64,000 bases of DNA from Paenalcaligenes niemegkensis (GTDB taxonomy: Bacteria; Pseudomonadota; Gammaproteobacteria; Burkholderiales; Burkholderiaceae_B). Under the pieces are notes generated by a model. It did not search any database. It saw only the letters and a program-made list of their open reading frames with translations, and was not told where the DNA came from. A program made the position numbers and the translations under genes. This document shows positions 12,973 through 29,758 of the stretch, in pieces; the first letter of the stretch is position 1, and each line of letters begins with the position of its first letter. Where the stretch lies: positions 124,001-188,000 of the forward strand of contig NZ_JAKGCT010000002.1 in the NCBI RefSeq assembly GCF_022230885.1. Direction: 5' to 3'.

Positions 12973-14259
12973 ATGCCTAACGCTGAGATCTGGCTGGCAT
13001 TAAGCCACCCCTTGGTTGTTGCGCTACTGGGCAGCGCCCTCCTGCTCATCTGGTACAGCGATATAAGCCGTCCCCGTTATATGCTTTATCTTGGCGTTGC
13101 CTATCTGGCCTACAGCGTAGCAGTAACTTTGCAGATAACCGGTATTCCATCCATACAGGCAATCAATGTAATGCTCACCGGGCCCCTGTACATGGTGGCT
13201 GTGATTCTGCTTACTCATGGGTTAATTGCGCTATCAGGGCGCCCCTACCCTTATTGGTTTCCGATCGTGGTTGTCAGCCTGATGCTGGTAAGCCGACTCT
13301 ATTTTGTACTGTTTGACGATAATACCCAGCTGCGCTTTTATCTGCTACATGCTGCTGTCACTATGATTCTTCTTCATGGCTCGGTCCTGGCTCGTCATTT
13401 GCTCAAAGGCCGTTCTTCCGAAAAAGTGCTTTATTTATCATTTCTGCTGTTGGCGTTAAGCAATACGCCACGCACCTTGCTAGCACTCACACGTCCGGCT
13501 CACAGCTATGGCTTTGACTCAAGTAGTTACTGGCTGATCACCCAACTATCCATCTATGTTTTTGCGATTGCCTTTGGCCTTTCCCTGATTCTGACGATCA
13601 TGCAAAAACGCATTATTACCCACAGGGTTTTAAGCGAGACTGACTCTTTGACCGGCCTGCGTAACCGACGAGGGTTTTTCGACACCGCTGCGCGTATGAC
13701 AAGCAGTGTCGATTACTACACTATTCTTGCCGCCGATATTGATCGTTTCAAGGCGGTTAACGATAGCTATGGACATGCCATCGGCGATGCCGTCCTGATT
13801 GAAACCGCAGCCGTAATTAAAAAAAGCATAAGACCGGGTGACGTTTCAGGTCGTATCGGAGGCGAAGAGTTCGCTATTTTCTTGCCGGATACCTCGCTGG
13901 AAGATGGCCACAGGGTGGCTGAGCGACTGCGCAAAAACTTCGAGGAGTTTATTTTCCTTGAAGACCAAATAGACCTCAAATGCACCATTAGTCTGGGCGC
14001 TGCCACATTTAACAGTGCGACCCCTATCGCTGACGCCCTGCTAAGCGCTGACAGGCTGCTCTACCAGGTCAAGGCTGAAGGGAGAAACCGCGTGGTCAGT
14101 GCTTCCCCTAATCCTGCCTTGATTGAGTACCCGTCAGGTTTTTTAAGGCACCTTATTGCTAAGAGCCATTGGTGCCGGATAAAACAAATGTGCCGACAGC
14201 AAGCACACTGTCGCCAACTTGCTGGTAAAAAGCTCGTCGTGACTCTACGCGCTTTGTAA
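12973..14259 (+). CDS. membrane-bound diguanylate cyclase (GGDEF)
   Basis: About 428 residues. Six or seven hydrophobic helices (residues about 10-215) form an integral-membrane sensor, followed by a GGDEF domain with SETDSLTGLRNRRGFF, ADIDRFKAVNDSYGHAIGD and an intact GGEEF active site. It should make cyclic di-GMP. An RxxD-type inhibitory site is not evident upstream of GGEEF (RPGDVSGRIGGEEF contains R-P-G-D, which may qualify). The ATG at 12973 has GGAG upstream; the longer frame starts at a TTG. The last about 100 bases overlap the convergent Cache gene. This may reflect a missing base in the T6 run at 14139-14144: with T7 the frame would stop at about 14159, with T5 at about 14145. Confidence 0.9.
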   Translation: MPNAEIWLALSHPLVVALLGSALLLIWYSDISRPRYMLYLGVAYLAYSVAVTLQITGIPSIQAINVMLTGPLYMVAVILLTHGLIALSGRPYPYWFPIVVVSLMLVSRLYFVLFDDNTQLRFYLLHAAVTMILLHGSVLARHLLKGRSSEKVLYLSFLLLALSNTPRTLLALTRPAHSYGFDSSSYWLITQLSIYVFAIAFGLSLILTIMQKRIITHRVLSETDSLTGLRNRRGFFDTAARMTSSVDYYTILAADIDRFKAVNDSYGHAIGDAVLIETAAVIKKSIRPGDVSGRIGGEEFAIFLPDTSLEDGHRVAERLRKNFEEFIFLEDQIDLKCTISLGAATFNSATPIADALLSADRLLYQVKAEGRNRVVSASPNPALIEYPSGFLRHLIAKSHWCRIKQMCRQQAHCRQLAGKKLVVTLRAL

Positions 14260-15103
14260 CGGGGCTAAACCATTGATAATCGATTTGCTGAATATTATTC
14301 GGACTGGCTGTATCGAGTATTTCGGCCAAAAAAGGCTTGCCCTGAATATCGGTGACATGGTCCAGCGGCTGGTCATTTAAGCTTGGAGTCACAGGCGTCC
14401 AGAGCACAGTTCGCTCGGCCTTATCCAGAACAAAGACGTATTGGTCAGGATTTCTAAAGCCGCTTTGCTTATTGCGGAACTTGCGTAAAGCCAACACCGG
14501 ATTTTTAAAGTACTCACTGACCGCGACGTCCAGCAGGTCCTTTGCACTTTCCTCAGTTGAGAATCCAGGAAAATACCCTGCTGCAATGACTATATTATCA
14601 ACCACACGAAAATAGCTAATCTTGGAGTCCGCCCCTGCGTCGGCTGGATTAAACCAAAGATACTCTACCTTTCCCTCGTTCGCCGTTTTTGCACTATCCA
14701 GCATCTGCTTGAAAAATGGATGACCTTCTTCATCAGTCAGATCCAAAACATTTTGCCCAATCAATGCCGCTGACCACCCTCCGCTTGATAACAGCACACC
14801 GCCGCGACTCAGACTAAACAAATACAACTCATTGTCAGTAAAGCCGGGATCGCTATTGAAATCGTTGACCCCAGTGATTCCGTTTTTCTGTATATGCTCT
14901 ACCGCGGTATCAAGCAAGCTATGTACGCGCTTCTCTATTGCCAAAGTGTCACTGAGAACAGTGTCTCTTTGCTGGTTCCTGGCTTGACTTTCGCCAGCAG
15001 AAACCCCGCCGGCCAAAAGAGCGGAACTCAATAGACCGAAAACCAAGCCACGCGCCAATAAGCCGGAATACAATCTGCGCGTATTTTTTCTTGTATTTTG
15101 CAT
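14159..15103 (-). CDS. periplasmic protein with two tandem single-Cache domains, in the taurine TRAP operon
   Basis: A 314-residue exported protein. The basic N-terminus and hydrophobic stretch (ARGLVFGLLSSALLAGGVSAGE) form a signal peptide. Two repeats of the sCache_2 pattern follow: residues about 50-175 (ELYLFSLSRGGVLLSSGG, GKVEYLWFNP, VDNIVIAAGYFPG) and about 185-310 (QYVFVLDKAERTVLW, QIDYQWFSP, VGDSVLAVGTFVL). There is no membrane anchor after the domains and no output domain, so it should be a soluble ligand-binding protein. It starts two bases after the TRAP large subunit stop and is thus the last gene of the leftward operon. The ligand may be the transported sulfonate; that is inference. 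Confidence 0.8.
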   Translation of the reverse strand: MQNTRKNTRRLYSGLLARGLVFGLLSSALLAGGVSAGESQARNQQRDTVLSDTLAIEKRVHSLLDTAVEHIQKNGITGVNDFNSDPGFTDNELYLFSLSRGGVLLSSGGWSAALIGQNVLDLTDEEGHPFFKQMLDSAKTANEGKVEYLWFNPADAGADSKISYFRVVDNIVIAAGYFPGFSTEESAKDLLDVAVSEYFKNPVLALRKFRNKQSGFRNPDQYVFVLDKAERTVLWTPVTPSLNDQPLDHVTDIQGKPFLAEILDTASPNNIQQIDYQWFSPVTKRVESRRAFYQQVGDSVLAVGTFVLSGTNGS

Positions 15104-15105
15104 AA

Positions 15106-16445
15106 TTAATATCCCATTAACTCAGGCAGCCACAATGCTAAGCCTGGGAAAAATGCGATGATGAAAATTGCCGATACCAAGATCAATACAAACGGCAACG
15201 ATTTCATCACAATTTGCTCAACCGTTGCTCCACCGATTCCCGACGCAACAAATATATTTTCTCCCAAAGGCGGTGTAATGAAACCAACGGATAAGGTACA
15301 AATAACTACAATACCTACATGCGTTGGATCTATGCCCAGCATATAAGTTATAGGTAACAGAACGGGCACCAGAATCATAATGGCAGCTAGAGTTTCCATG
15401 AACATGCCGACGAACAAAAGGAATAAAATCAGAATTGTCCAGATAATGTAAATATTATCCGTCCAGCTAATGATTGATTCTGCCAGCATCGCTGGTATGC
15501 GTTGCTCGACCAGCAAACGGCCAAAGACAGTAGCAGCGAATAGAATTAGCAGTACTCGTCCAGAAAGCCAAGTGGTCGTTCTCAAAGAAAAGAAGATTTT
15601 CTTGAAGTTTAATTCTCTATGTACAAATATGCCTATAAATAGAGTATAGAAAATAGCTACCACGGCCGACTCGGTAGGCGTAAAAAATCCAGCATAAATA
15701 CCGCCTAAAATCAGTACTGGTGCCAGAATTGACCAAAACCCACGACGCACTGATACCCAGACCAGGCTTTTATTCCACCCGTCTTCCATACCTTTGTAAT
15801 TCTTTTTCTTGGAAATAATATAGTTCATTACCAGTAGGCTTCCGGCCACAATACACCCGGGAATGACGCCTGCAATAAACAGCTTCGATATGGAAACCGA
15901 GGAAAATGGCCCATGCATGCTGATCGCTTCGGGCGGCGGTCTTAGCCCTAGAGCAGATATCCCAAAGATAACCAAGGGAATTGAGGGTGGTGTAATGATC
16001 CCTAGCCCACCCGCCGATGCAGTCACTGCCGACGCATAACTAAGATCATAATTACGCTTAGTCATTGCCGGAATCATCAGCATTCCGACCGCCGCCGTTG
16101 TCGCTGGACCAGAACCTGATATTGCGCTAAAAAACAGGCAAGCCAGAATCGTCGCTGCACCCATTCCCCCGTGATAGGACCTGCCAGGCTTTCAGCAATA
16201 TCTACCAGTCGCCTGGAGATCCCTGCTGCCTCCATAAGAGCACCTGCCAAAATAAAGGCTGGTAGCGCCATCAGTGGAAAACTTCCCACCGACGTAAAGG
16301 CAATTTGTACAAAAGAAATTGGGTTCTTGCCTAACACCAGAAAAGCAGCCATGGCGGCACCAGCAAGTGACACCGTAATAGGCGCTCCGATCAAGAGCAA
16401 TATAATAAAACCGCCAAATAACAGACCGACTATTTGCTGTTCCAT
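15106..16445 (-). CDS. tauM: TRAP transporter large permease, taurine locus (frameshifted in this sequence)
   Basis: DctM-type subunit of about 446 residues with 12 or so helices that forms the sodium-driven translocation channel. The N-terminal part (16445 to about 16170) and the C-terminal part join if the C5 run at 16166-16170 has a sixth C, giving AGPITGGMGAATILACLFF, a DctM hallmark. SGSGPATTAAVGMLMIPAM and TLSVGFITPPLGENIFVASG are further family motifs. It follows the small permease by two bases. The name tauM rests on its position beside tauXY and xsc. Confidence 0.82.
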
Positions 16446-16447
16446 TT

Positions 16448-17014
16448 TTATGCTCCTTTAGCCATACTGGTTTTTATTATTTTGGTTGTTTTTTTTATTT
16501 TTTCCAGCTCCAGACTTTCAGGATCAATAATTTCAACGGATTTAAACCAAATCAGATAGTTATTCCATAAGATTCTCAATGACATGAGAAAAAATGAAAT
16601 AGGCAAAACCATAAAAAAGTATTTCATTGGAATGCCTGTAGTCTGAGATTTCCAAAACAAATTCATACGATTAAAAACAAAATCGTAACTTAACCAAGAA
16701 AAATAAAGGTTAAAGATCACCCAAACAAGATCAGCAAATGTTTCTGAGACTTTTTTTACAATAGGCGGAAAAAAACCAAACTGAAAAGTAACCCGATTAT
16801 GAGCAGACATCTTCGCTGCAACTACGGCTCCTAAATAGGCGAACCACACAAACATATAGGTAGCAACTTCATCTCCCCAAGGAATTGAATAGGAGAAAAA
16901 TTGCCGCACTATAATTTGTGCAAATAACAAAATAACAAAGGAGCTAAGTAGCAAACCACATACATACTCTTCAATATGATTAAGCAGGTGCAACAACACC
17001 TTTTTGATTGACAT
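16448..17014 (-). CDS. tauL: TRAP transporter small permease, taurine locus
   Basis: DctQ-type subunit, 188 residues, four hydrophobic helices. The WGDEVATYMFVWFAYLGAVVA segment is the typical DctQ signature. The start at 17014 follows GGAGGCCTCT; the longer frame at 17050 has no ribosome site. It pairs with the large permease and the binding protein upstream. It is more AT-rich than its neighbours by eye. Gene name by context. Confidence 0.88.
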   Translation of the reverse strand: MSIKKVLLHLLNHIEEYVCGLLLSSFVILLFAQIIVRQFFSYSIPWGDEVATYMFVWFAYLGAVVAAKMSAHNRVTFQFGFFPPIVKKVSETFADLVWVIFNLYFSWLSYDFVFNRMNLFWKSQTTGIPMKYFFMVLPISFFLMSLRILWNNYLIWFKSVEIIDPESLELEKIKKTTKIIKTSMAKGA

Positions 17015-17111
17015 AGAGGCCTCCGCAAACATTTGCCAGACGAGCGTCATATCTCCTCTCTGACTCCTGCCTCGGGCAAGAGTCAGACAGAGGAAAACAG
17101 GTGTTGAAAGA

Positions 17112-18107
17112 TTAACGGCCTAAAGAAGCCAAGATTTTATCCAGCCTTTCTTTACCACCAATAGCATCGTAGAACGCAGGCCAGACTTTGGCAGTTGCGG
17201 CTTCTATCCACTCTTTCTCATCGTCTGCAGGGTCACTGATTTCCATTCCAGCAGCCACTAACTCATCTTTAATTCGATTTTCAGTCTCCGCCAAATAGGC
17301 GTAGCTGTGCTCAGTTGCCTCCATGCCCGCATCGAGAATGGCTTGCTGTAACTCTGGCGTTTGCTGTTGAAAAATCGACTCGCTAACAACAAGTGGCTCT
17401 AAAGAAAATAAATAACGAATATTGGTGACGTATTTCTGCACCTCCTCAAATTTCATCGCGGAAATAGTGATGTAAGGGTTGTCTTGCCCATCCGCTACTT
17501 GCTGTTGCAGCGCCGTAAATGTTTCAGTCCACGCCAAAGGACTCGGATTAAGACCCCAAGAGTTATAGGTCGCAATCATCAGCTCATTTCTGGGCACGCG
17601 AATCACCAAGCCCTTTAAGTCGGCCAATGTCTTTACGGGACGCTTGGAATTTGTCAGCACACGAAAACCCGAGTATGACCAGCCGACAATTCGTACGCCT
17701 GCATCACGTATCGTATTTTCGGTTAGCTCTTTACCCACTTCTCCCAGCGTCAGTTGCTTGGCTTCTTCTGCACTTTGAATCACATAAGGAAGTGTCAGCA
17801 CCGCCACGCTGGGCGAAAAAGGCGTGACGTTGTTGATCGCTAAAATAGAAAAGTCCAACAAGCCCATTGCGGCGTCATTTACCGTGTCCTGCTCATCACC
17901 TAGCTGGCTGTTGGGAAACAAGTCTACTTTCACGTTACCGTCTGTTTTCTTGTTCAGACTCGCTGCGAACGCTTTGCCCAGTTCATGCTGCGTGCCGCCA
18001 GCGGCATCGCCAATTGCGACTTTAAATGTGGTTGCGCTTACCACCCCCGCAACAAATAAACTGGCTGCCAACACCACGGAACCCTTGAGTAAGGTTTTAA
18101 GTTTCAT
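17112..18107 (-). CDS. tauK: TRAP transporter substrate-binding protein, probable taurine binder
   Basis: DctP-type periplasmic binding protein, 331 residues. A clear signal peptide ends near VVSATTF. The core carries FKVAIGDAAGGTQHELGKAF, the KTLADLKGLVIRVPRNE ligand-Arg motif (the Arg of R-V-P binds the acidic group) and VADGQDNPYI. The start follows GGTGGAGACTAGAA. Its place directly downstream of tauY/tauX and xsc supports taurine as ligand. Confidence 0.87.
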   Translation of the reverse strand: MKLKTLLKGSVVLAASLFVAGVVSATTFKVAIGDAAGGTQHELGKAFAASLNKKTDGNVKVDLFPNSQLGDEQDTVNDAAMGLLDFSILAINNVTPFSPSVAVLTLPYVIQSAEEAKQLTLGEVGKELTENTIRDAGVRIVGWSYSGFRVLTNSKRPVKTLADLKGLVIRVPRNELMIATYNSWGLNPSPLAWTETFTALQQQVADGQDNPYITISAMKFEEVQKYVTNIRYLFSLEPLVVSESIFQQQTPELQQAILDAGMEATEHSYAYLAETENRIKDELVAAGMEISDPADDEKEWIEAATAKVWPAFYDAIGGKERLDKILASLGR

Positions 18108-18187: not shown

Positions 18188-19642
18188 TTACAGCACCTCG
18201 TCTTTCAAGTGATACCAACGATAGAGGAACCGTTGACCAAAGCGTCTGAATGGTGCGAAAGCTTCGGACTCTACCATCTCTTTAACATTAGGATGAGGCA
18301 AACGATCTTTGAAAATGGGCAGGTCCAGCTCTTGCCCCTGGCCTGCAATCCACTGAGCCATCCGTTTTCCTGCCTGAGCCGAATACATCACACCGTTGCC
18401 ACCGTAGCCCATGGCATAAAAAATACGTTGCGCAGGATCTGGCTGAACAATGCGCGGCATCATGTCATGGCTGACATCAACCCACCCCCACCAGGAATAA
18501 TCCAGCTGGATACCTGTGAGTTCAGGAAATTTTCGATGTAATGCCATACGAAGAAAATCCTCGTATTTCTTTTCAGGTGCATGCTTGCCCGTGATAGCGC
18601 TTCGACTTCCTATCTGCAGGCGATTATCGGGTAGCAAGCGGTAATAGTTGCGCAATATGCGAGTATCGGTGAGCACCTGATGGGTATAGAACTTACACGC
18701 CTGAATTTCATCGGCAGTCAGTGGCCGGGTAACCACCGAATTGGACAAAATAGGAAGCAATCGATTTCTAAACTCTTTATGCAACCCATTTGAGGTGTAG
18801 CCGCCCGTGGCGACACCCACCGACTTCGCCTTGACAACGCCGCTGGGGGTACGCAAATAGTGGTAGCCATTGCGGGTTTCCCACCCTTGTACCGGACTTG
18901 ATGGATGTACTGTTGCACCTAGTGCACGTGCTTTTTTCAGATAGCCAAAAGCCAGTTTCCCAGCATGAATGCCGATTCCCTCAGGCTCATGCATTGCCCC
19001 CTGCGCCTCATGGTCATTAACCCATTCATTACGTACCGTCCCGGCATCCAGAATCCGTGCGTTATAGCCAAAGGTGTTGCGCAGTAGCTCTGCCTCTTTC
19101 TCGAGGGCCGGCATGACACTCTTGCGATGAGCAATGTATAGATGACCTCCGGGTTGCGGTTCGCAAGCTATATCTTTAATAAGTTCCTTAAAGTTTTCCA
19201 TGCCCTCCACGCATTCGCGATGCATCTTCAGCGCTACATCAACACCCCAGCGCTGTATCCATTGTGAACGCTTCAAACGTCCGGAAGCACATTGCGCCTG
19301 GCCTCCATTTCGCGTACTGCAGCCCCAAGCGGTACGATTGGCCTCAAGCACAGTCGCTTTAATGCCATGTTCCTGGGCAAGATAAATAGCAGTGGTCAAG
19401 CCTGTAAAGCCGGAACCGATAATGGCTACATCCACTTCAATGTCGTGGGTGATCGGGCCATCGTCAGCAGGCGGTTCGCCCGCCGTTCCCAACCAGTAGG
19501 TAGGTGCATAGTCAGTTCCCATACCCGGGTTTTTAGCGACGAGCGGATCATAGGCAGGATCATAAGTACGCTGAGCAGGCGTTGCCATCTTGTCTGACGT
19601 GTCTTCAATAGGACTGGCTGCTGCTTCTACTGCTATCGTCAT
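18188..19642 (-). CDS. tauY: FAD-dependent oxidoreductase, taurine dehydrogenase large subunit
   Basis: About 484 residues of the DAO/PuuB-like family. The dinucleotide-binding Rossmann motif VDVAIIGSGFTGLTTAIYLA lies near residue 70, with the Glu of VLEANRTAWGCS binding ribose and a C-terminal GYGGNGVMYSAQAGKRMA FAD motif. In TauXY systems this subunit oxidatively deaminates taurine to sulfoacetaldehyde and ammonium with a cytochrome c-like acceptor. A similar gamma-glutamylputrescine oxidase is the main alternative, but the SnoaL-like partner and nearby xsc favour TauY. GGGAG before the ATG at 19642 sets the start; the longer frame at 19657 overlaps tauX. Confidence 0.85.
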   Translation of the reverse strand: MTIAVEAAASPIEDTSDKMATPAQRTYDPAYDPLVAKNPGMGTDYAPTYWLGTAGEPPADDGPITHDIEVDVAIIGSGFTGLTTAIYLAQEHGIKATVLEANRTAWGCSTRNGGQAQCASGRLKRSQWIQRWGVDVALKMHRECVEGMENFKELIKDIACEPQPGGHLYIAHRKSVMPALEKEAELLRNTFGYNARILDAGTVRNEWVNDHEAQGAMHEPEGIGIHAGKLAFGYLKKARALGATVHPSSPVQGWETRNGYHYLRTPSGVVKAKSVGVATGGYTSNGLHKEFRNRLLPILSNSVVTRPLTADEIQACKFYTHQVLTDTRILRNYYRLLPDNRLQIGSRSAITGKHAPEKKYEDFLRMALHRKFPELTGIQLDYSWWGWVDVSHDMMPRIVQPDPAQRIFYAMGYGGNGVMYSAQAGKRMAQWIAGQGQELDLPIFKDRLPHPNVKEMVESEAFAPFRRFGQRFLYRWYHLKDEVL

Positions 19643-19646
19643 GACA

Positions 19647-20036
19647 TCAGCTCCCACTAACAGCAGGGCGATTTTTACGAAAAGCGTTCTTTACCGAAAT
19701 TTTGTCACCCTCAAAAGTAAACAGATCAACCATTTGCGCTTCATGCCTCGCGCCATTCAAGTCTGTTCCTTCGAAACGCGAAGTAGACATCGCCTGATTT
19801 TCATTGAGTACATAAAACTCGCCGTCTAGCCAGGCCGCGTCGGGGAAGTTTTGCCAGGCAGCCTCAAAAGCGGTGCGTACCTTCTCGCGACCAGTGTGTT
19901 CAGTGCCCATGACGTCCGGCCCAGCTATCGTAAAGAAAGTGCACTGATCTGCCATCATGCTCATGATGATGTCAATATCATGGTCATTCCAGGCTTGGGT
20001 ATAGGCCTTAAGAATTGTCAGTTTGCTATCGCTCAT
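19647..20036 (-). CDS. tauX: SnoaL/NTF2-like protein, taurine dehydrogenase small subunit
   Basis: A 129-residue protein with the SnoaL cone fold pattern: LKAYTQAWNDHDIDIIMSMMADQCTFF at the N-terminus, GREKVRTAFEAAWQNFPDA in the middle, and beta strands ending in FEGDKISVKNAFRKNRP. It lies directly before the flavoprotein gene and has a GAGGACATAATA ribosome site. TauX proteins are small partners of this type, so the assignment rests on fold plus context. Confidence 0.8.
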   Translation of the reverse strand: MSDSKLTILKAYTQAWNDHDIDIIMSMMADQCTFFTIAGPDVMGTEHTGREKVRTAFEAAWQNFPDAAWLDGEFYVLNENQAMSTSRFEGTDLNGARHEAQMVDLFTFEGDKISVKNAFRKNRPAVSGS

Positions 20037-20058: not shown

Positions 20059-20868
20059 TTAATGTGCTGCCGGAGCCGACTCGGTGTGTATGAGTCCGGC
20101 AGTAGGCGAAGAAGCTTCGGCTAAATAGTGTTTTTTTGCCATGCGGCCGGCTAAGTAGGCATCACGCCCCGCCTGCACCGCCCTGCGCATTGCCCGGGCC
20201 ATCCGGACAGGATCGTCAGCGTAGGCCAAAGCAGAATTCATTAATACTGCCTCGCACCCAAGCTCCATTGCAATCGTTGCATCTGAAGCCGTTCCTACCC
20301 CTGCATCCAGCAATACGGGTACAGAGATCTGATCGACGATAAGCCGTACATTCCAGGGGTTCAGAACTCCCATGCCAGAGCCAATAATTGAGGCCAGAGG
20401 CATCACAGCAATGCATCCGATGTCTTCCAGCATCCGTGCCTGTACAGGGTCATCAGCACAATACACCATGACATCGAAGCCATCGGCCACCAGCTCTTTA
20501 GCGGCGATCAAGGTTTCAGGCATATTGGGATACAAGTTAGTGGGACTACCAAAAATTTCCAGCTTGACTAGCGCATGTCCATCCAGTAACTCGCGGGCAA
20601 GTCTGGATGTGCGCACAGCATCGACGGCGCTAAAGCATCCGGCTGTATTGGGTAAATACGTAAACTCCTTGGGTGAGACGTAATCCAGCAAGCTAGCCTC
20701 ATCTGGCGATTGTCCGATATTGGTGCGGCGAATCGCTACGGTGACAATCTCTGCCCCGCTCTCGATAATGGCGGCACGAGTTTGTTCAAAGTCCTTGTAC
20801 TTGCCGGTACCTACAAGCAATCGGGACTGATATGTCTTACCTGCTAACGTAAAAGAATCTGCTGTCAT
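20059..20868 (-). CDS. thiG: thiazole synthase ThiG, stand-alone copy in the taurine operon
   Basis: A 269-residue TIM-barrel enzyme of the ThiG family, which forms the thiazole phosphate of thiamine from deoxyxylulose phosphate, ThiS thiocarboxylate and dehydroglycine. [17 protein letters not shown] at the N-terminus, the Schiff-base Lys in [23 protein letters not shown] and [18 protein letters not shown] are all intact. The region usually reading V-A-L/V-R-R is present as VTVAIRR. No thiS, thiE, thiO or thiF is adjacent. It lies between xsc and tauX with short gaps, so it is co-transcribed with a thiamine-diphosphate enzyme. Confidence 0.88.
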
Positions 20869-20943
20869 TTTGCTACTACCTCTAGCTCGCCTTGTGGTGG
20901 GGCACGCCCCACCACACCCTGATTGATGCTTCGACCAGGTTGT

Positions 20944-22758
20944 TTAAACGTAGTCTTTATACTTGTCGAGCGTACGCACGGGTTTGCGCAAGGCATCGCG
21001 ACGGAAAGGGTCGCCCAGTTCGCGTGTGCACATGATTTCAATCACGCAAGTTTTGCCTTCATTCATTTGCATATCGACCGCACGTTTCAATGCCGGACCC
21101 ACATCCTCAAGCCGATCCACCACAATGCCTTCAGCACCCATGGATTTGGCGATGTCAGCAAAAGATGGACTTTCCAGCTCACCTGCTACAAAACGACGGT
21201 TGTAAAACTCCACCTGGTTTTTCTTCTCCGCGCCCCACTGGCGGTTGTGGAACACAATGGCCGTCACTGGAATGTCATGACGAACAGCCGTCATAATTTC
21301 CATCATGCTCATTGCCCACGCCCCATCACCCGCATAGGCAATCGCCGGACGCCCAGGAGCAGCCGCTTTGGCCCCGATAATAGTGGGTAGTGCATAGCCG
21401 CAGTTACCGAAGCTCATCGGAGCAAAGAAACTCCGCGGCTTTTCAAAACGCAGGTAGCTGTGAGCAACCGAGTTGATATTTCCAATATCTGTGGAAACCA
21501 TCACATCTTCAGGCATCGCTTTTTCCAGCTCACGCAATACCTGACGAGGATGCAAATACTCGCCGCCATTAAAGGTTTTCTCTTTGGCGTTTTCTGCAAT
21601 CACATCCAGACTGTATGCATCTTTTTCGTGCGTCCAGTTATTCAGTTCTTCTTCCCACGCCGCCTTTTCATCAGCAATGGTTTTGGCTCGCGCGTCTTTT
21701 GTAGCGTCGCATGCGAGATCTTCTGCGGCCAAACGTTTGCTCAGTTCTACTGCCACTGCCTTAGCATCACCGCAAATACCCACAGAAATTTTCTTCACCA
21801 GCCCCAGGGCTTTATTATCAGCATCGATCTGGATAATCTTGGCCTTCGTAGGCCAGTAATCCATACCATATTGCGGCAACGTACCAAAAGGGCCTAAGCG
21901 CGATCCCAAAGCAATAACAACATCAGCCTGGGCAATGAGTTTCATTCCGGCCTTCGAGCCCTGATAGCCTAAAGGACCGCACCATTGGGGGTGGCTTGCC
22001 GGAAAGGAATCGTTATGCTGGTAGCTGTTCACGACCGGGGCGCCCAGGCGCTCGGCGAGTTCAATGCATTCCTGCACGGCATCCCCCATAACCACACCGC
22101 CCCCTGAAATAATGACAGGAAACTTGGCATGACGAAGCAGTTCGACTGCTTCATTTAGCGATCGCTCACCACCATGACCACGATCCAGTTTTTGTGGTTC
22201 GGGGATTTCACATGTAATTTCGCCGTAGAAATAATCACGTGGAATATTTAGTTGAGTGGGTCCCATTTCACTCATTGCACGATCAAAACAACGCGCCGTG
22301 TATTCGGCCATACGAGCCGGATTAGTGACATGCCCCTGATACTTGGTGAACTCCTGGAACATGGGGAGTTGCTGGCACTCTTGAAAGCCGCCCAAGCCTA
22401 TCGTGTTGGTACCTGCCTCAGGCGTGATAATCACAACTGGGCTATGAGCCCAGTAGGCAGCCGCAATTCCTGTCACGCAGTTGCTGATACCCGGACCGTT
22501 TTGACCAATAACCATACCGTGGCGGCCCGAAACGCGGGCATAGCCATCAGCCATATGCGCTGCGCCCTGCTCATGCACAACCGGGATCAGCCGAATGCCA
22601 GCAGGAGCAAAAATGTCCATGGCATCCATAAATGCCGATCCCATAATGCCAAAGATATCGGTAACGCCATTGGCTACCATCGTCTCTACAAACGCCTCAG
22701 AGGGCGTCATGGTGGTTAACCCCGTTACAACCTTGCGATTATCTGCTACCTGGCTCAT
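20944..22758 (-). CDS. xsc: sulfoacetaldehyde acetyltransferase
   Basis: Thiamine-diphosphate enzyme of 604 residues, the usual Xsc length. It converts sulfoacetaldehyde and phosphate to acetyl phosphate and sulfite. The catalytic Glu lies in PVVHEQGAAHMADGYARV, MGSAFMDAMDIFAPAG and PEAGTNTIGLGGFQE are Xsc-type, and the ThDP motif runs from GDGAWAMSMMEIM to FHNRQWGAEKKNQ. GGAGAATTAAGTCG before the ATG at 22758 sets the start. It heads the leftward operon xsc-thiG-tauX-tauY-TRAP-Cache and is divergent from the CobS-like gene. Confidence 0.95.
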   Translation of the reverse strand: MSQVADNRKVVTGLTTMTPSEAFVETMVANGVTDIFGIMGSAFMDAMDIFAPAGIRLIPVVHEQGAAHMADGYARVSGRHGMVIGQNGPGISNCVTGIAAAYWAHSPVVIITPEAGTNTIGLGGFQECQQLPMFQEFTKYQGHVTNPARMAEYTARCFDRAMSEMGPTQLNIPRDYFYGEITCEIPEPQKLDRGHGGERSLNEAVELLRHAKFPVIISGGGVVMGDAVQECIELAERLGAPVVNSYQHNDSFPASHPQWCGPLGYQGSKAGMKLIAQADVVIALGSRLGPFGTLPQYGMDYWPTKAKIIQIDADNKALGLVKKISVGICGDAKAVAVELSKRLAAEDLACDATKDARAKTIADEKAAWEEELNNWTHEKDAYSLDVIAENAKEKTFNGGEYLHPRQVLRELEKAMPEDVMVSTDIGNINSVAHSYLRFEKPRSFFAPMSFGNCGYALPTIIGAKAAAPGRPAIAYAGDGAWAMSMMEIMTAVRHDIPVTAIVFHNRQWGAEKKNQVEFYNRRFVAGELESPSFADIAKSMGAEGIVVDRLEDVGPALKRAVDMQMNEGKTCVIEIMCTRELGDPFRRDALRKPVRTLDKYKDYV

Positions 22759-22839
22759 CGACTTAATTCTCCAAATATGAACTGGCATACATGCCACACT
22801 TGCTAAAACCATCTTTTCAAGACTTTCCAACAGTCTTTT

Positions 22840-22994: not shown

Positions 22995-23945
22995 ATGGAG
23001 AATAACCTCATAATTCCAGAACGTAAAGTTTCAATTAAAGAAACCTTCGGCTTTGACAGCAGCCATGAAACTCTGGCCTTTGCAGAGCCGACTGACTATG
23101 TGCCCAAAATTGACCACGCCTATAAATTTGACCCTGACGTCACGCTTTCGCTGTTGGCTGGTTTCAACAATAATCGGCGGGTGCTGGTTCAGGGACGACA
23201 CGGAACGGGGAAATCCACCCACATAGAACAAGTCGCTGCCAGACTGAATTGGCCATGCATGAGGGTGAACCTGGATGGCCACATCAGTCGACTTGACCTT
23301 GTTGGTAAAGATACGATCCGGCTTAAAGATGGCTTGCAAGTCACTGCTTTCCAGGAGGGTGTAATCCCTTGGGCTCTGCAGCGGCCAATCGCTCTGATTT
23401 TTGATGAGTATGATGCTGGTCGTCCTGACGTAATGTTTGTCATCCAGCAAATTCTGGAACAGGACGGGCGGTTTACAATGCTCGACCAGAACAGGGTGCT
23501 GACCCCTCATCCCTACTTCCGTCTTTTCGCCACGTCCAATACAGTGGGGCTGGGCGACAGTACTGGACTCTACCGCGGCACCCATCACCTCAATCACGCC
23601 CAGATGGATCGCTGGAATATCGTGGCAAATCTTAACTACATGGAGCCAGCACAGGAGCTTTCCATCGTGCTGGGCCGGGTTCCGTCCAAAGACACCGGGC
23701 AAGGCCGCCAAGATATCGCGGCGATGGTAGCGTTGGCCAACCTGACGCGCAATGCCTTTGCTGCAGGTGACATTTCAACGCTTATGTCCCCACGCACTGT
23801 CATCACCTGGGCGGAAAACTGCACCATATTCAAAAACAGGCAACGTGCTTTCGTTGTCTCTTTCCTGAACAAATGCGACGAGTCTGAGCACATGATCGTC
23901 GCGGAACTTTACCAGCGCTGCTTTAACGAAGAACTTGCGCTCTAA
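22995..23945 (+). CDS. CobS-like AAA+ ATPase (MoxR clade)
   Basis: A 316-residue AAA+ protein that closely follows aerobic cobaltochelatase subunit CobS. Walker A is RVLVQGRHGTGKSTHIEQVA (residues about 58-77), Walker B ALIFDEYDAGRPDV, and sensor 1 LFATSNTVGLGD. The ribosome site is AGGAGCCGGAA. The VWA partner gene follows after 41 bases. No cobN (the large chelatase subunit) is in the window. It may serve cobaltochelatase elsewhere or act as a MoxR-type chaperone for an enzyme of the taurine locus. Confidence 0.85.
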   Translation: MENNLIIPERKVSIKETFGFDSSHETLAFAEPTDYVPKIDHAYKFDPDVTLSLLAGFNNNRRVLVQGRHGTGKSTHIEQVAARLNWPCMRVNLDGHISRLDLVGKDTIRLKDGLQVTAFQEGVIPWALQRPIALIFDEYDAGRPDVMFVIQQILEQDGRFTMLDQNRVLTPHPYFRLFATSNTVGLGDSTGLYRGTHHLNHAQMDRWNIVANLNYMEPAQELSIVLGRVPSKDTGQGRQDIAAMVALANLTRNAFAAGDISTLMSPRTVITWAENCTIFKNRQRAFVVSFLNKCDESEHMIVAELYQRCFNEELAL

Positions 23946-23986: not shown

Positions 23987-25695
23987 ATGTCTGAACCTTC
24001 AGATTTATTACGCAAGCAGCGATTATTGCGAGAGCTCAGCGCATCAGTAACGCGGGCTTTGGCAAACGACCGTAGTGTGCACATACGTCAGCAGCATTTT
24101 TCAGGGCTAACCAGTCTCTTGCCAATTACGCTCCACACTTGCGCTTACATGAAGAAGAAAAGCTGGAGTTCTTGCGTGGAGTCGCTGACAGCCTGGCTTT
24201 GCGACTGCTATACAGCGACGCCGTATTGCACCAGGCCCTTTTGCCTGAACAGCCTATAGCCCGTCTTGTTTTCGACTGGCTGGAAAGCCTGCGCACAGAG
24301 TCGCTTGCCCCTGCTTTCTTGCCAGGTGTTAAAGCAAACCTGCATCGACGGTTTTACCATTGGTCAGCCGGCTTTCATCAAGCGGGCCACACCCATTCGG
24401 CGCTGGGCATTTTGCTGTATACAGCCGTGCAAATGTGCTGGAGCCGATTGAACGGTATGCCGGTATATGAAGAGACCGAAGATCTGATTGAAGGGACACG
24501 CGCATCCATTGGCACTCAGCTCGGCCATCTGGTGGCGGCTCTGCGCCGCCATCGCACTGAGCAGCGCCGCTATGCGCCTTACGCAGCCGAGCTCGCAGAG
24601 CTTCTTAGCGAAAGCATCACGCATGCTGCAGAAGAACAACGCGACACTCAGCCTGACGATGACGACAAGGCCCTGGATGCCTTCGCATTGCTCCTGGATC
24701 TGGATACAGGACAGGAAGGCACGATTACTGCAGCCCAGTCGGAGTTCAGCAAAACCTTTGAAGCCTTACATCAGCGCTATCAGATTTTTGACACTCAGTT
24801 CGACACGCAGAGCCATATCGCGGAACAAGTTCGTCCTGAATTGCTGATTTCCTTTCGCGAACAAATCAATAAGCGTATTGCGGCACAGAATTTAAGCTTC
24901 AACTTGCTTGTGCATCGTATAAGACAGGCGCTCAACAATTCGGTGACAGAGCAGTGGATAGGAAATCAAGAGGAAGGTCTGATCGATGGTAGCCGCCTTA
25001 GTCAACTTATCAGTTCCCCCATGGACAGGCATCTATTTACTTACCCCACACCACAGCACATCAACCAAAGCAGTGTTTCTTTTCTTATTGATTGCTCGGG
25101 CTCAATGAAGGAAAGTGCGGAGACCGTAACGATGATGGTGGATTTGTTAAGCCGGGCACTTGAACACAGCGGAGCCACTACGGAGGTACTGGGCTTTTCC
25201 ACGCACGCCTGGAATGGAGGACGTCCCTATCGTCGCTGGGTGAATAAAGGCCGACAGTCTCATCCCGGACGGCTCAACGAAACAGACCATCGCATTTTCA
25301 AGGATGCGCATACACCCTGGAGGCAGGCCAGCCAATCGATAATGGCTCTGCTGAAGCTGGACCTTTACCGAGAAGGCGTTGATGGCGAAGCAGTGCAATG
25401 GGCATGCCACCGCCTGCTTGAGCAACCCACCCAACGCAAGCTGCTATATGTGATTTCCGACGGTAGCCCTATGGATAGCGCTACAAACCTGGCTAACGAT
25501 GACAATTACCTGACGTCTCACTTGCAACAGGTTTTATTGCAATACGAGAGACAGGGCATAGAAATATGGGGCGTCGGCATTAACCTTGATTTGAGCCTGC
25601 TATACCCGCACTCACTTCTAGCGGATTTACATAAAGGACTGGATAACCACTTTATTAATGACTTCATCAAGAGCCTTCATGTTCGTCGGCGCTAA
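23987..25695 (+). CDS. CobT-like VWA protein (frameshifted in this sequence)
   Basis: Reconstructed length about 569 residues. The N-terminal CobT domain is split: 23987 to about 24105 in one frame, then LANYAPHLRLHEEEKLEF onward in the next. One extra base near 24104-24106 (GGG to GGGG, reading HFSGANQSLANYAPH) joins them. An acidic linker (QPDDDDKALDAF) follows, then a VWA domain with a complete MIDAS motif FLIDCSGSMKES and ISDGSPMDSATN. With CobS it forms the ATPase/MIDAS pair used for metal chelatase activation. Its stop overlaps the convergent IclR gene by four bases. Confidence 0.8.
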
Positions 25696-26501
25696 TTTGT
25701 ATTAAGCTGCGATTCGATTTTAGTCAGAGCCTGCGCCGCCCTGCGCAAGGCAGGTAAGGCAGCAAGTGCCTTATCGGCTGTCATCCGCATAATAGGAGCC
25801 TGTGTTGCCACCGCCATGTTCGAACGCCCTGCCGTTGTTCGGGGAACGAGAACGGCAACACAGAACAGGCCAGGCAGGAATTCTTCGTTATCAAACGCAT
25901 AGCCTTGCTCACGCACTTTTTCTAACTCAAGCTCGAGCTCCTCAAGCGTTTGAATCGTGTTTTTGGTGTAAATTTCAAACGACACGTTTTCCAATAACCG
26001 CCTGCGCTGGGCAGGAGGCATCTGCGCTAACAGAACTTTGCCGCTTGCTGAGCAATGAACGGGAACCTTAGAGCCAGGGCGTAAATAAAAACGCAAAGGA
26101 GCCTCAGTTTCGACACGATCCAAATACAGAACCTCGTTTCCTGACAGGGCTGTGAGGTTGCAGCTTTCTCCTAGCTCATTGCCAAGAGCGCGTAATACCG
26201 CATGGCGTGCGCCATATTTTGTATCGTTAAACAGCAAGTCCTCGGCTAAACGGCGTAACCGCCCTCCGACACAGTAATGACGTCCGTCTGTGTCGCGGAT
26301 CAACATATCTGAACTTTCAAGCTGCTGCAGCATTCTGTGTACGGTCGGCTTAGGAAGATCGGTACTGTCGACCAGATCCTGCAAGGAAAACTGCTTGTCT
26401 TGCGTAGCTATTAATTCCAAAAGACTAAAAAGCCGCATGGTGGGGGTGTCACCCGCAATCTTGATCAGTCCATCGTCGGCCAAACTCTGTTTCTCATTCA
26501 T
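25692..26501 (-). CDS. IclR-family transcriptional regulator, probable taurine regulator
   Basis: A 269-residue regulator. N-terminal winged helix (MRLFSLLELIATQDKQFSLQDLVDSTDLPKPTVHRMLQQLE, residues about 22-63) and C-terminal effector domain (CNLTALSGNEVLYLDRVE, PVHCSASGKVLLAQMP, FLPGLFCVAVLVP). It is divergent from pta and convergent with the CobT-like gene, in the middle of the taurine locus, so it likely controls xsc and pta operons in response to taurine or a derivative. The regulation is inferred from position. Confidence 0.88.
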   Translation of the reverse strand: MNEKQSLADDGLIKIAGDTPTMRLFSLLELIATQDKQFSLQDLVDSTDLPKPTVHRMLQQLESSDMLIRDTDGRHYCVGGRLRRLAEDLLFNDTKYGARHAVLRALGNELGESCNLTALSGNEVLYLDRVETEAPLRFYLRPGSKVPVHCSASGKVLLAQMPPAQRRRLLENVSFEIYTKNTIQTLEELELELEKVREQGYAFDNEEFLPGLFCVAVLVPRTTAGRSNMAVATQAPIMRMTADKALAALPALRRAAQALTKIESQLNTN

Positions 26502-26651
26502 TTACGCCACCAATAAATCCATTATTTAAAATCAATGATACCAAAAAACGTGTCAAATCATTGACCAAGAGATAAATTATCGTTAAATTGGATAAATAAC
26601 AATAAACGAAACTATAAATATCGATAAACGAGACATATTAGGATGTGGTTC

Positions 26652-27659
26652 ATGCAACTACTTGATCAACTGATTGACCTGGTTAAAAAATCTCCTGCGC
26701 GTATTGTAGTCTGTGAGGCTGACGATGCCCGTATTCTGGCTGCCGCTCATCTGGCAAATCAGCAAGGTATCGCCAAAATGATTCTGGTGGGCGACACGTC
26801 CCGCATCCAGGAAACCGCCAGGCGCCTGCAATTAGATATACATGATCTCAGTATTGAAGACCCGGCGCTATCTGAAAAAAGGCCAGAGCTAGCCAGAGCT
26901 TTAGTAAAGAGACGAGCTTCAAAAGGCATGAACGAAGAAAAAGCCCAGGCAGCTCTTAATGATCCCCTATGCTTCGCTACCATGCTGGTTCATTGCGAAT
27001 ATGCCGACGGCTCTGTTGCTGGTGCCGTCTATAGCACGGCCGATGTAGTACGATCTGCGTTACAGCTCATAGGAAAAGCGCCCGGCGTTACCTTGGTGTC
27101 CAGCTTTTTTCTCATGCTCCTGAATAAAGAACATCATCCTATACAAAAAGGCATTATATTCAGCGACTGCGGCCTGGTTGTCGACCCCTCGGAAGAAGAG
27201 CTTGCTGCCATTGCTATAGCGGCCGTGCAAAGCGCACGCTTGCTATTACAGACGGAGCCTCGCGTTGCCATGCTCAGCTTTTCCACCTCGAACAGCGCAA
27301 CACACCCTGCTGTAACCAAGGTAGTGCGTGCTGCACAACGAGTCAAAGCGGCCATTCCCACCTTGGCAATTGACGAAGACGTACAGTTTGATGCTGCGAT
27401 CATTCCTGAGATTGCAGCCAGGAAACTGAAGAACTCAGCCGTTAATGGGCTGGCAAATGTATTTATCTTCCCCAACCTGGAAGCTGGCAATATTGGCTAT
27501 AAAATAGCCGAACGGCTCGGTGGCGTCACAGCCATTGGTCCGTTACTGCAAGGCCTTGATAAACCCGCTAATGATCTGTCCAGAGGTTGCAGCACAGAAG
27601 ATGTTTTTTACGTTATTGCCATCACCTCATTGCAGGCTCAGACCAGGCACCGTTCATGA
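26652..27659 (+). CDS. pta: phosphate acetyltransferase
   Basis: A 335-residue short-form Pta that converts acetyl phosphate from Xsc into acetyl-CoA. ARIVVCEADDARILAAAHLA opens the domain; PLCFATMLVHCEYADGSVAGAV, STADVVRSALQLIG, VAMLSFSTSNSA and FPNLEAGNIGYKIAERLGG are Pta motifs. ATG at 26643 abuts TAGGA directly, so the ATG at 26652, nine or so bases after AGGA, is more likely. Its stop overlaps the exporter start (ATGA). Confidence 0.92.
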   Translation: MQLLDQLIDLVKKSPARIVVCEADDARILAAAHLANQQGIAKMILVGDTSRIQETARRLQLDIHDLSIEDPALSEKRPELARALVKRRASKGMNEEKAQAALNDPLCFATMLVHCEYADGSVAGAVYSTADVVRSALQLIGKAPGVTLVSSFFLMLLNKEHHPIQKGIIFSDCGLVVDPSEEELAAIAIAAVQSARLLLQTEPRVAMLSFSTSNSATHPAVTKVVRAAQRVKAAIPTLAIDEDVQFDAAIIPEIAARKLKNSAVNGLANVFIFPNLEAGNIGYKIAERLGGVTAIGPLLQGLDKPANDLSRGCSTEDVFYVIAITSLQAQTRHRS

Positions 27660-28422
27660 GCTTTAGCACAATTGCCTTATTGATTGCCGTTATTGCAATA
27701 GGTACCTACTTTCAGACGGTCACGGGTTTCGGTCTGGCCATGATCGTGATCGGTATCAGTAGTGGTATGGAACTAACCAGCGTACCGTTTATTGCAACAG
27801 TGGTTAGCCTGATCAGTTTGGTCAATAGCGCCGTGGCCCTGCCTCGGCATCTTCATCACATAGACTGGCGTATTGCAAATACAACCTTGTTGGGGATCGT
27901 GCCATCCAGCATTATTGGGGTAGTGCTACTAAATTTTCTTAATAGTCAGGCCACGAGTATTCTGGAGTTTTTACTGGGGGCCGTTATCGTGTATAGCGGT
28001 ATCAGTTTTGCATTGCGGCCCAAGCAACGTTCAGCAGAATCAAGCCTGAGAACCTTTTTTATGGTCGGCTTTATTTCAGGCTTATGCGGAGGTTTGTTCG
28101 GGATGCCCGGCCCTCCGATCATTTTCCTTATGTACAGGCAGCCCATGGAAATTCCTGTGATACGGAACATGTTGCTGTTGATGTTTGCCTGTACCGCTTT
28201 TTCACGCACTTTTTATGAAGTAATCACGGTTGGACTCGCCAGAGACACCCTGGTCATTTCTGCAATGGCCATACCGTGTGTTGCCCTCGTTACCCTCTGG
28301 GCACAGCGCCACCCCCTGCCATTAGCGCAACCACTATGCGCCGTATTACTTTTCTCACCTTGGTGCTCATCGGTTTGGGGCTAATAGCTGGCAGTTTAAA
28401 AAGCCTGACAGACGCTTTCTGA
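27656..28422 (+). CDS. tauE: TauE/SafE-type sulfite exporter of the taurine locus (frameshifted in this sequence)
   Basis: Reconstructed length about 255 residues. FQTVTGFGLAMIVIGIS in the first repeat and GLCGGLFGMPGPPIIFLMY in the second are TauE/SafE hallmarks. The read frame ends at 28384 with a non-family tail. A sixth C in the C5 run at 28312-28316 gives QRHPPAISATTMRRITFLTL and a final hydrophobic helix ending at a TGA at 28420-28422. It starts inside the pta stop codon, so export of the sulfite made by Xsc is coupled to acetyl-CoA formation. Confidence 0.83.
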
Positions 28423-28768: not shown

Positions 28769-29758
28769 ATGGAAACCGTGACAATGGAACCAGCCGCCAT
28801 CGCACAAGCTAAAGGTCTACTTTCTGTATCGGTACGCACCATTAAGGTGTTGGCCAATGGTATTAAAAGCTATGAGCTTGTGGCAGAAGGTTTGCCTCCT
28901 TTTAGTGCAGGATCTCATATTGACGTGCATATACAGGAAGACCTAATACGTCAGTACTCTTTATGCAATGATCCTCATGAAAAAAATAGATATGTAATTG
29001 CTATATTACGTGAGGTAAATGGCAGAGGTGGATCACAATATATACATGATCAAATTACAGAGGGAAGCGAGTTACTCATTTCGTCTCCCAGAAACTTCTT
29101 TCCGCTGAACAATAAAGCAAAAAAACACAATTTTGTGGGCGGGGGTATAGGAATTACTCCTTTGATGTCAATGCTCCGAGAAGCCCAATGGCGTAGTGAC
29201 GACTTTCATTTGCACTATTTCGTACGTTCGCCAGAGCGTGGCGCTTTTATCGATCAATTGCGTCCTGTAATCGAGGCCGGTAAGGCAAGCATTTATTACG
29301 ATAGCGAAGGCACTTGTCCTTCTCTGGACCTCCTGTTTGAAACCGTAAAATCCGGCGAACATATTTACTACTGCGGTCCCGCCGGCTTTATGGATGCGAT
29401 GGACCGTGCCACCGCACACTGGCCTGCAGGCACCGTTCAATACGAGCGCTTCAATGCACCTGTTGCCGATGCGGCCACAACTGGACCGACTGTAAACAGC
29501 TCCTTTCAAATCCAGCTGGCCCGTAGCGGTCAAACCTATACCGTGGGCGCGGACGAAACCATTGTTGAAACACTAAAACGCAACGGCATTGTCATCGACG
29601 TTTCCTGTACGGAAGGCTATTGCGGAACCTGCATGACTCGTTACTTAGAAGGCACTCCAGAACACAGGGATAGCGTGCTGGATGACGCTGGGCGTAAAAA
29701 CTATTTGATGGCTTGCTGTGCCAGGTCTGAAGGAGAAACTTTGGTATTAGATCTATAA
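28769..29758 (+). CDS. phthalate-dioxygenase-reductase type oxidoreductase (FMN, NAD, 2Fe-2S)
   Basis: A 329-residue class IA reductase. An N-terminal FMN domain (IRQYSLCNDPHEKNRYVIAI), an NAD domain (FVGGGIGITPLMSMLREA, YYCGPAGFMDAM) and a C-terminal plant-type ferredoxin with CTEGYCGTCMTR plus a downstream C in LMACCARSE. It should pass electrons from NADH to the Rieske oxygenase encoded 168 bases downstream. AAGGAGCAACC precedes the ATG. It resembles VanB/TsaB/CntB-like partners; the sequence does not tell which substrate. Confidence 0.92.
   Translation: METVTMEPAAIAQAKGLLSVSVRTIKVLANGIKSYELVAEGLPPFSAGSHIDVHIQEDLIRQYSLCNDPHEKNRYVIAILREVNGRGGSQYIHDQITEGSELLISSPRNFFPLNNKAKKHNFVGGGIGITPLMSMLREAQWRSDDFHLHYFVRSPERGAFIDQLRPVIEAGKASIYYDSEGTCPSLDLLFETVKSGEHIYYCGPAGFMDAMDRATAHWPAGTVQYERFNAPVADAATTGPTVNSSFQIQLARSGQTYTVGADETIVETLKRNGIVIDVSCTEGYCGTCMTRYLEGTPEHRDSVLDDAGRKNYLMACCARSEGETLVLDL

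Follow-up and report, generated by a model that had tools for sequence, protein, structure and literature searches.

A stand-alone thiG directly behind xsc in a taurine cluster of Paenalcaligenes niemegkensis, a probable extra thiazole synthase for ThDP supply

The sulfoacetaldehyde acetyltransferase Xsc is a ThDP-dependent enzyme. In the accessible part of Suvorova and Rodionov, 2016 (PMC5320631), a taurine dissimilation set is described that comprises xsc, tauX/tauY, TRAP transporter genes, pta and tauE, and thiG and pdxS are listed in predicted actinobacterial TauR regulons, together with tpa, which encodes a PLP aminotransferase. This was the only earlier link between thiG and a taurine regulon found in a literature search from which subscription papers were mostly excluded, and no such link was found in the accessible part of PMC8960797.

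The window, i.e., the whole stretch of 64,000 nucleotides of Paenalcaligenes niemegkensis DNA that was analyzed, contains thiG at 20059..20868, exactly where a preliminary description of the sequence had placed it; the gene lies on the minus strand. It starts with ATG and encodes a protein of 269 amino acids of the thiazole synthase family, which matches positions 2-247 of the 247 of the Pfam profile PF05690 (ThiG) with 340 bits (cut-off 23, E 9.7e-102). Its proposed position within a taurine operon beside Xsc and between xsc and tauX was borne out, as xsc is located 75 nt upstream and tauX 22 nt downstream, and an Xsc equivalog is followed by SnoaL, DAO and TRAP genes in order. Among the operon genes scanned in the window, no further thi gene was present, also in agreement with the preliminary description. 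The product of xsc (20944..22758, minus strand) reaches 1044.5 bits against the equivalog model TIGR03457 (cut-off 676.4) and has all three TPP-enzyme domains; the listed open reading frame extends to a TTG at 22830, but as read from the sequence translation more likely begins at the ATG at 22758, which follows AGAATTAAG. Downstream of thiG, all on the minus strand, follow genes for the tauX-like small subunit of taurine dehydrogenase (19647..20036, SnoaL fold, 129 amino acids, PF12680 2.8e-13) and the tauY-like large FAD subunit (18188..19657, DAO family, 489 amino acids, PF01266 4.1e-56), both of which were named by family and gene order because the search of the window genes with NCBIfam models yielded no match for them. 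ThiO was ruled out as the identity of the TauY-like protein, which scored 58.8 bits against TIGR02352 (cut-off 250.8). The TRAP solute-binding protein DctP (tauK-like; 17112..18107, PF03480 3.4e-69), the small permease DctQ (tauL-like; 16448..17050, PF04290 3.9e-26), the large permease DctM (tauM-like; 15106..16447, PF06808 4.7e-83 for a 352-amino-acid open reading frame) and, at the cluster end, a Cache-domain sensor-like protein (14159..15103, PF17200/PF08269), which is present in relatives too, complete this strand. The dctM gene of the window carries one frame change after about residue 93 and is a single intact frame in all five relatives checked; the frame change may be either an assembly error or a genuine lesion.

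Divergent from xsc and on the plus strand are two recurrent neighbors, a CobS-like AAA+ gene (22995-23945) and a CobT-like VWA gene (24139-25695). They are followed by a gene for an IclR-family regulator (25692..26501, minus strand, PF01614 3.5e-37), by pta (26643..27659, plus strand, PF01515 5.2e-111), whose phosphate acetyltransferase would consume the acetyl phosphate made by Xsc, and by a gene for a tauE-family sulfite exporter (27587..28384, plus strand, PF01925 2.1e-19; listed with a TTG start, the real start being maybe later). The latter is adjoined by a gene for a ferredoxin-type reductase (28769-29758) with a weak match, under its cut-off, to DmmA (dimethylamine monooxygenase). With xsc, tauX/tauY-like, TRAP, pta and tauE genes, the window therefore has on hand the taurine dissimilation set as given in the accessible part of PMC5320631. 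The cobST-like pair adjoins xsc in 21 of 28 family xsc loci (L034-L061), one of the seven misses being a 4.9-kb contig, and also occurs in Thauera and Photobacterium taurine clusters. A literature search for cobST with xsc in taurine use found nothing; the pair might act as a chaperone or metal-inserting pair for taurine enzymes.

The Schiff-base lysine, which the preliminary description had reported as kept in this ThiG, is present as K102, and K102, E104 and D188 align with catalytic residues of 1xm3 and 1tyg. We take these residues to correspond to B. subtilis K96, E98 and D182, i.e., the Schiff-base lysine and catalytic acids, and the available structures to represent the B. subtilis type (1tyg/1xm3) and the P. 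aeruginosa type (1wv2). All three residues are invariant in 14 of 14 taurine-linked rows and in 23 thiD-linked rows. When 13 linked rows, with the partial row of G104 left out, were compared with the thiD-linked rows, three sites separated the two groups cleanly (Y113/F, I161/L and S212/T), all by conservative changes. The linked pairs with computable dS (five of nine) gave omega values of 0.006, 0.012, 0.038, 0.048 and 0.114, the first four of which belong to the four Alcaligenaceae linked pairs with computable dS, and the thiD-linked pairs gave 0.007-0.024 (four of six), these ratios being rough because several dS values exceeded 2.5, including those of the pairs with 0.038 and 0.048. Omega was dropped where dS was not computable, which concerned four of nine linked and two of six thiD-linked pairs and the sole between-copy pair. 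Judged by these ratios, the taurine-linked ThiGs are under purifying selection, with a constraint pattern typical of a working ThiG, although maybe slightly looser than that of the housekeeping copy.

The preliminary description would have regarded its proposal as refuted if this were the only thiG of the genome and the arrangement were unique to one strain. Neither is the case: two thiG genes are present in the window genome (3.67 Mb, 94.6% complete), namely the operon copy and a second copy at G000:C1:277240, and the arrangement recurs across several genera. The preliminary description had suggested looking for a second copy in the thiSGE locus; the second copy is located beside thiD, with a periplasmic-binding-protein gene labeled btuF also adjacent, and the single thiS of the genome lies elsewhere, on another contig (G000:C4:1729444; 74.4 bits, cut-off 37.45). 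The two ThiGs share 71% identity.

Behind the stop codon of xsc, the 75-nt gap before thiG (20869..20943, minus strand) is predicted to form a strong RNA hairpin (-31.9 kcal/mol, an energy reached by 0 of 200 shuffled sequences); a slightly extended segment gave a z of -3.28, with 2 of 200 shuffles as low. Across nine xsc-thiG gaps z ranged from -5.4 to -1.2, with values above -1.6 in three of them, and most other clusters possess a hairpin of differing sequence behind xsc. A hairpin specific to thiG was rejected, as hairpins also occur behind xsc where tauX or tauZ is next (L040, L053, L225); no hairpin signal was obtained behind xsc in L199. The hairpin may let xsc exceed the downstream genes in output. 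When the window and L003 were searched for a TPP riboswitch or other known RNAs, just two tRNAs reached the gathering score; seven linked clusters gave none and seven unlinked thiG loci just two tRNAs, which says little on a release from feedback because the unlinked loci hold no thiC start. TauR-like sites were not enriched in the window (78 versus 78.5 expected). Paired TauR-like sites with two mismatches each, 23 bp apart, were present upstream of tauX in L223, L216 and L219 only, and no repeated site, single sites at most, was found upstream of xsc in the clusters examined. As the sites give no support, it is the operon structure from which we infer a taurine induction of thiG.

When genome contigs were scanned with the window ThiG, at least 80 loci were obtained, each together with flanks of up to 6 kb, and at least five taurine clusters were among the matches listed, i.e., a Paenalcaligenes record and four others. 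The gene order in Thauera sp. 28 is xsc-PF03601-thiC-thiS-thiG-MocR-tauX-tauY-DctPQM, and Thauera Sel9 has the same order minus thiC. In Pseudogulbenkiania ferrooxidans, the order is thiC-thiS-thiG-thiE-MocR-tauX-tauY, and in Crenobacter luteus thiC-thiS-thiG-thiE is followed by a Na+/H+ antiporter gene and MocR-tauX-tauY-DctPQM; xsc is unseen in these two clusters because the contig ends inside thiC. The respective genomes have two (both Thauera strains and Crenobacter) or four (Pseudogulbenkiania) thiG copies. The four thiG loci of Pseudogulbenkiania G862 are L215-L218, and the neighbors of the three non-taurine copies were scanned in part: thiG lies between spoT-like and yqeY/dnaG genes in L215 and is flanked by pyruvate-kinase and LysR genes in L218, and thiS-thiG in L217 is near genes for a solute-binding protein, hydrolases, an MFS transporter and an aldehyde dehydrogenase with no taurine genes nearby. 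The order xsc-thiG-MocR-tauX-tauY was found in G001, G076 and the Paenalcaligenes record (L118), and xsc-thiG-tauX-tauY without MocR in the window, G004, G046 and G108. The MocR-type gene, which combines GntR and aminotransferase domains in the architecture of TauR, is presumably tauR; no such gene is present in the 22 nt that separate thiG from tauX in the window. The same operon type without thiG (xsc-tauX-tauY) occurs in G022 and G069, and a Photobacterium plasmid carries a taurine cluster without thi genes. On the Rhodococcus DK17 plasmid, thiS-thiG faces tauE in convergent orientation at a distance of about 11 kb from xsc-pta, and this ThiG shows 49% identity.

Within the genus, Xsc was detected in seven of 11 genomes (four from the family survey and three of seven from a further set), and thiG is located directly behind xsc in all seven, although cut by the contig end in G104. 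The four genus genomes without detected Xsc (91-95% complete) have one thiG each, beside thiD. In Alcaligenes, the xsc-thiG pair was present in two of ten genomes (G001, G108); of the other eight, three were searched for xsc, and none of these had Xsc above the cut-off. Locus L132 of Alcaligenes faecalis coincides in its coordinates with G112, from the genus of G001. A general linkage of xsc and thiG in the family was rejected: of the 101 genomes in the family survey, 29 had an Xsc above the cut-off, and thiG was directly behind xsc in five of these and absent from this position in 24. Fifteen of the 29 have thiG far from xsc or on another contig, one (G069, 83% complete) has no ThiG above 25 bits, and eight (L037, L039, L042, L043, L045, L049, L057, L059) have a different kind of ThiG with 39-43% identity to that of the window, 5.9-7.0 kb off on the far side of cobST. 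We count this kind as a neighbor of the cobST locus, given that in G033 such a thiG adjoins cobST and xsc is on another contig. A ThiS-like match under the family cut-off was seen just before the far-side thiG in the three genomes searched (G013, G041, G088).

The order survey identified Xsc at the E limit in 50 of 399 genomes (49 above the cut-off), 44 of which were new; 38 of these further xsc-positive Burkholderiales have thiG, near xsc in none of the 44. In the phylum survey, Xsc occurred in 32 of 397 genomes, 27 of them new, with thiG in 12 of the 27 and near xsc in none. Thus, allowing for fragmented assemblies that may conceal some links, thiG lies directly at xsc in five of 29 xsc-positive family genomes versus none of 71 other xsc-positive genomes. 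The linkage had been called unusual in the preliminary description, which holds with respect to these 71 genomes, but a link between thiG and TauR had been predicted for Actinobacteria before (PMC5320631). A ThiG match at E 1e-30 was absent in 15 of the 27 xsc-positive genomes outside Burkholderiales; many taurine degraders may thus need thiamine or thiazole from outside or have another route to it.

The preliminary description had further suggested a tree of operon-linked ThiG proteins. In a tree of 71 ThiGs, which included 37 of the 80 listed loci, the 14 taurine-linked rows formed one clade (98/91; 98% of 200 bootstrap trees) apart from the thiD copies, and linkage required one label change versus a shuffled mean of 13. 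The 14 rows represent copies of 13 distinct genomes because L118 belongs to the same assembly as G106 of the window genus, with 100% identity over 4830 bases. In a larger quick tree of 104 rows (113 rows, comprising all 80 listed loci and others, minus nine identical ones), the linked group had an SH-aLRT of 99 and also contained L217, which has no taurine genes beside it. A tree of TauY grouped the window-type clusters with Thauera, Pseudogulbenkiania, Crenobacter and Photobacterium (100/100), apart from other family members, and an Xsc tree grouped them, less firmly, with Thauera and Photobacterium (90/91). Mapped on the TauY and Xsc trees, thiG presence needs four and three changes, respectively, because the thiG-less G022, G069 and Photobacterium fall inside the groups. 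The taurine clusters of G046 (L047) and Alcaligenes G108 (L229) are 83% identical over 14.3 kb, and the thiD loci of the same two genomes 71% over 2.3 kb, suggesting that the taurine cluster likely moved between genera as a block. We consider it very unlikely that the operon thiG instead arose within this lineage by duplication of the genome's own thiD-linked copy, unrelated to the Thauera-type thiG. AU tests did not reject trees in which the Alcaligenaceae linked copies were joined with thiD-linked copies (p 0.137) or with all thiD-linked rows (p 0.0998). However, the free ThiG tree keeps all linked rows away from the thiD copies and so disfavors a local duplication of the housekeeping gene, TauY and Xsc group with the Thauera-type clusters and not with those of other family members, and the order thiG-(thiE)-MocR-tauX-tauY is common to the clusters.

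With regard to function, the operon thiG probably provides an extra thiazole synthase that raises the ThDP supply when the ThDP-dependent Xsc is made. Taurine would induce the operon, resulting in much Xsc and a higher ThDP demand; ThiG, produced from the same transcript as xsc or a coupled one, would use the thiocarboxylate of the cell's single ThiS and the common precursors DXP and dehydroglycine, and the additional thiazole phosphate carboxylate would enable ThDP to keep up with new apo-Xsc. The strongest evidence comes from the related clusters, in which thiC, thiS, thiG and thiE cover the two branches of thiamine synthesis as well as the step that joins them. The consistent pairing of xsc with this thiG within the genus, the Rhodococcus DK17 plasmid and the actinobacterial TauR regulons point the same way. 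The known role of thiC and thiE is thiamine synthesis, and their presence therefore argues for thiamine supply, one of two alternatives in the preliminary description, and against the other, in which ThiG was recruited for sulfur chemistry with a compound derived from taurine. A partner in such a new function might be TauY, which is encoded two genes off and belongs to the DAO family that includes ThiO (58.8 bits to TIGR02352), but TauY stays far under the ThiO cut-off of 250.8, thiC and thiE would have no role in this chemistry, the catalytic residues are kept, and just three sites, all conservative, separate linked from thiD-linked copies. We thus regard a new function as very unlikely. The operon thiG could also be an intact leftover of a former thi module that adds nothing during growth on taurine, which would fit with the lack of thiG at xsc in most xsc-positive genomes, the same operon type without thiG in G022 and G069 and the housekeeping thiG already in the genome. 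However, thiG has been retained in all seven xsc-positive genus genomes and in two Alcaligenes genomes, the omega values of the Alcaligenaceae pairs (0.006-0.048) are low and the active site is unbroken, whereas at about 80% protein identity one would expect an unselected gene to be disrupted, so that a mere passenger appears unlikely.

The stand-alone thiG is probably what remains of a larger thi(C)SG(E) module that this mobile type of taurine cluster carries in other Betaproteobacteria. Co-transcription with xsc, taurine induction, thiazole synthesis in vivo, thiazole as the limiting moiety and a reduction rather than growth of the module are steps that we infer. More tentatively, and with doubt slightly outweighing belief, we propose mobile "cofactor-on-demand" taurine clusters that cross betaproteobacterial families together with thi genes and in which the module shrinks from thiCSGE toward the limiting step, thiazole synthase. 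Bacterial thiamine synthesis is usually described as feedback-controlled by ThDP. If the proposal is true, cofactor synthesis induced by a catabolite would constitute feed-forward control alongside the usual feedback by TPP riboswitches, and a substrate-induced operon with its own thiazole synthase, or in relatives with most of the thiamine pathway, would tie this control to one enzyme. Such clusters would offer a simple, natural way to learn which step becomes limiting for ThDP when an enzyme that needs it is produced in large amounts, and would give a genetic clue for the engineering of pathways with ThDP enzymes.

The principle may, if true, reach other ThDP enzymes, as the spare thiSG of G865 beside a dehydrogenase complex and a lipoate-ligase-like gene would indicate. 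This member of the Rhodocyclaceae has two thiSG pairs, and at L222 (5106-11959) the spare pair is flanked on one side by a divergent E1alpha-E1beta-E2-lipoate-ligase-like set and on the other by an E3-like gene. E1alpha and E1beta are both ThDP-binding, E2 is an acyltransferase, and the E3-like pyridine-nucleotide-disulphide oxidoreductase gene follows about 75 nt behind thiG; from its gene content, L222 resembles a cluster for a 2-oxoacid or acetoin dehydrogenase that brings along its own genes for cofactors. Queries of the Xsc and E1/E3 type against 105 thiG loci gave a match in 11. Non-Xsc ThDP enzymes were near thiG in four, intimately in L222 and at 1.8 to 5.7 kb, maybe by chance, in L128, L131 and L218; with four such loci of 105, a general rule of ThDP enzymes beside thiG was not shown.

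Compared with known systems, the locus around the window thiG has all the gene kinds of the taurine dissimilation cluster xsc-tauXY-TRAP-pta-tauE, but thiG is inserted between xsc and tauX, and pta and tauE are located beyond the cobST-like pair and the IclR gene. The operon ThiG shares its full length and the catalytic residues with housekeeping ThiGs (the thiG-thiD locus, 1wv2 and 1tyg/1xm3), and differs from the genome's own housekeeping copy by its sequence (71% identical), its separate clade and its gene context. On the Rhodococcus DK17 plasmid, in contrast, thiS-thiG and tauE converge, and xsc is about 11 kb away from the thi genes. As far as the accessible part of PMC5320631 goes, the actinobacterial TauR regulons likewise join cofactor genes to taurine catabolism, but they belong to another phylum, whereas thiG of the window stands alone directly behind xsc in an operon without tauR. 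With this one forerunner in print, what is new here is the occurrence in Betaproteobacteria, the position of thiG directly behind xsc and the series of clusters from thiCSGE to thiG alone.
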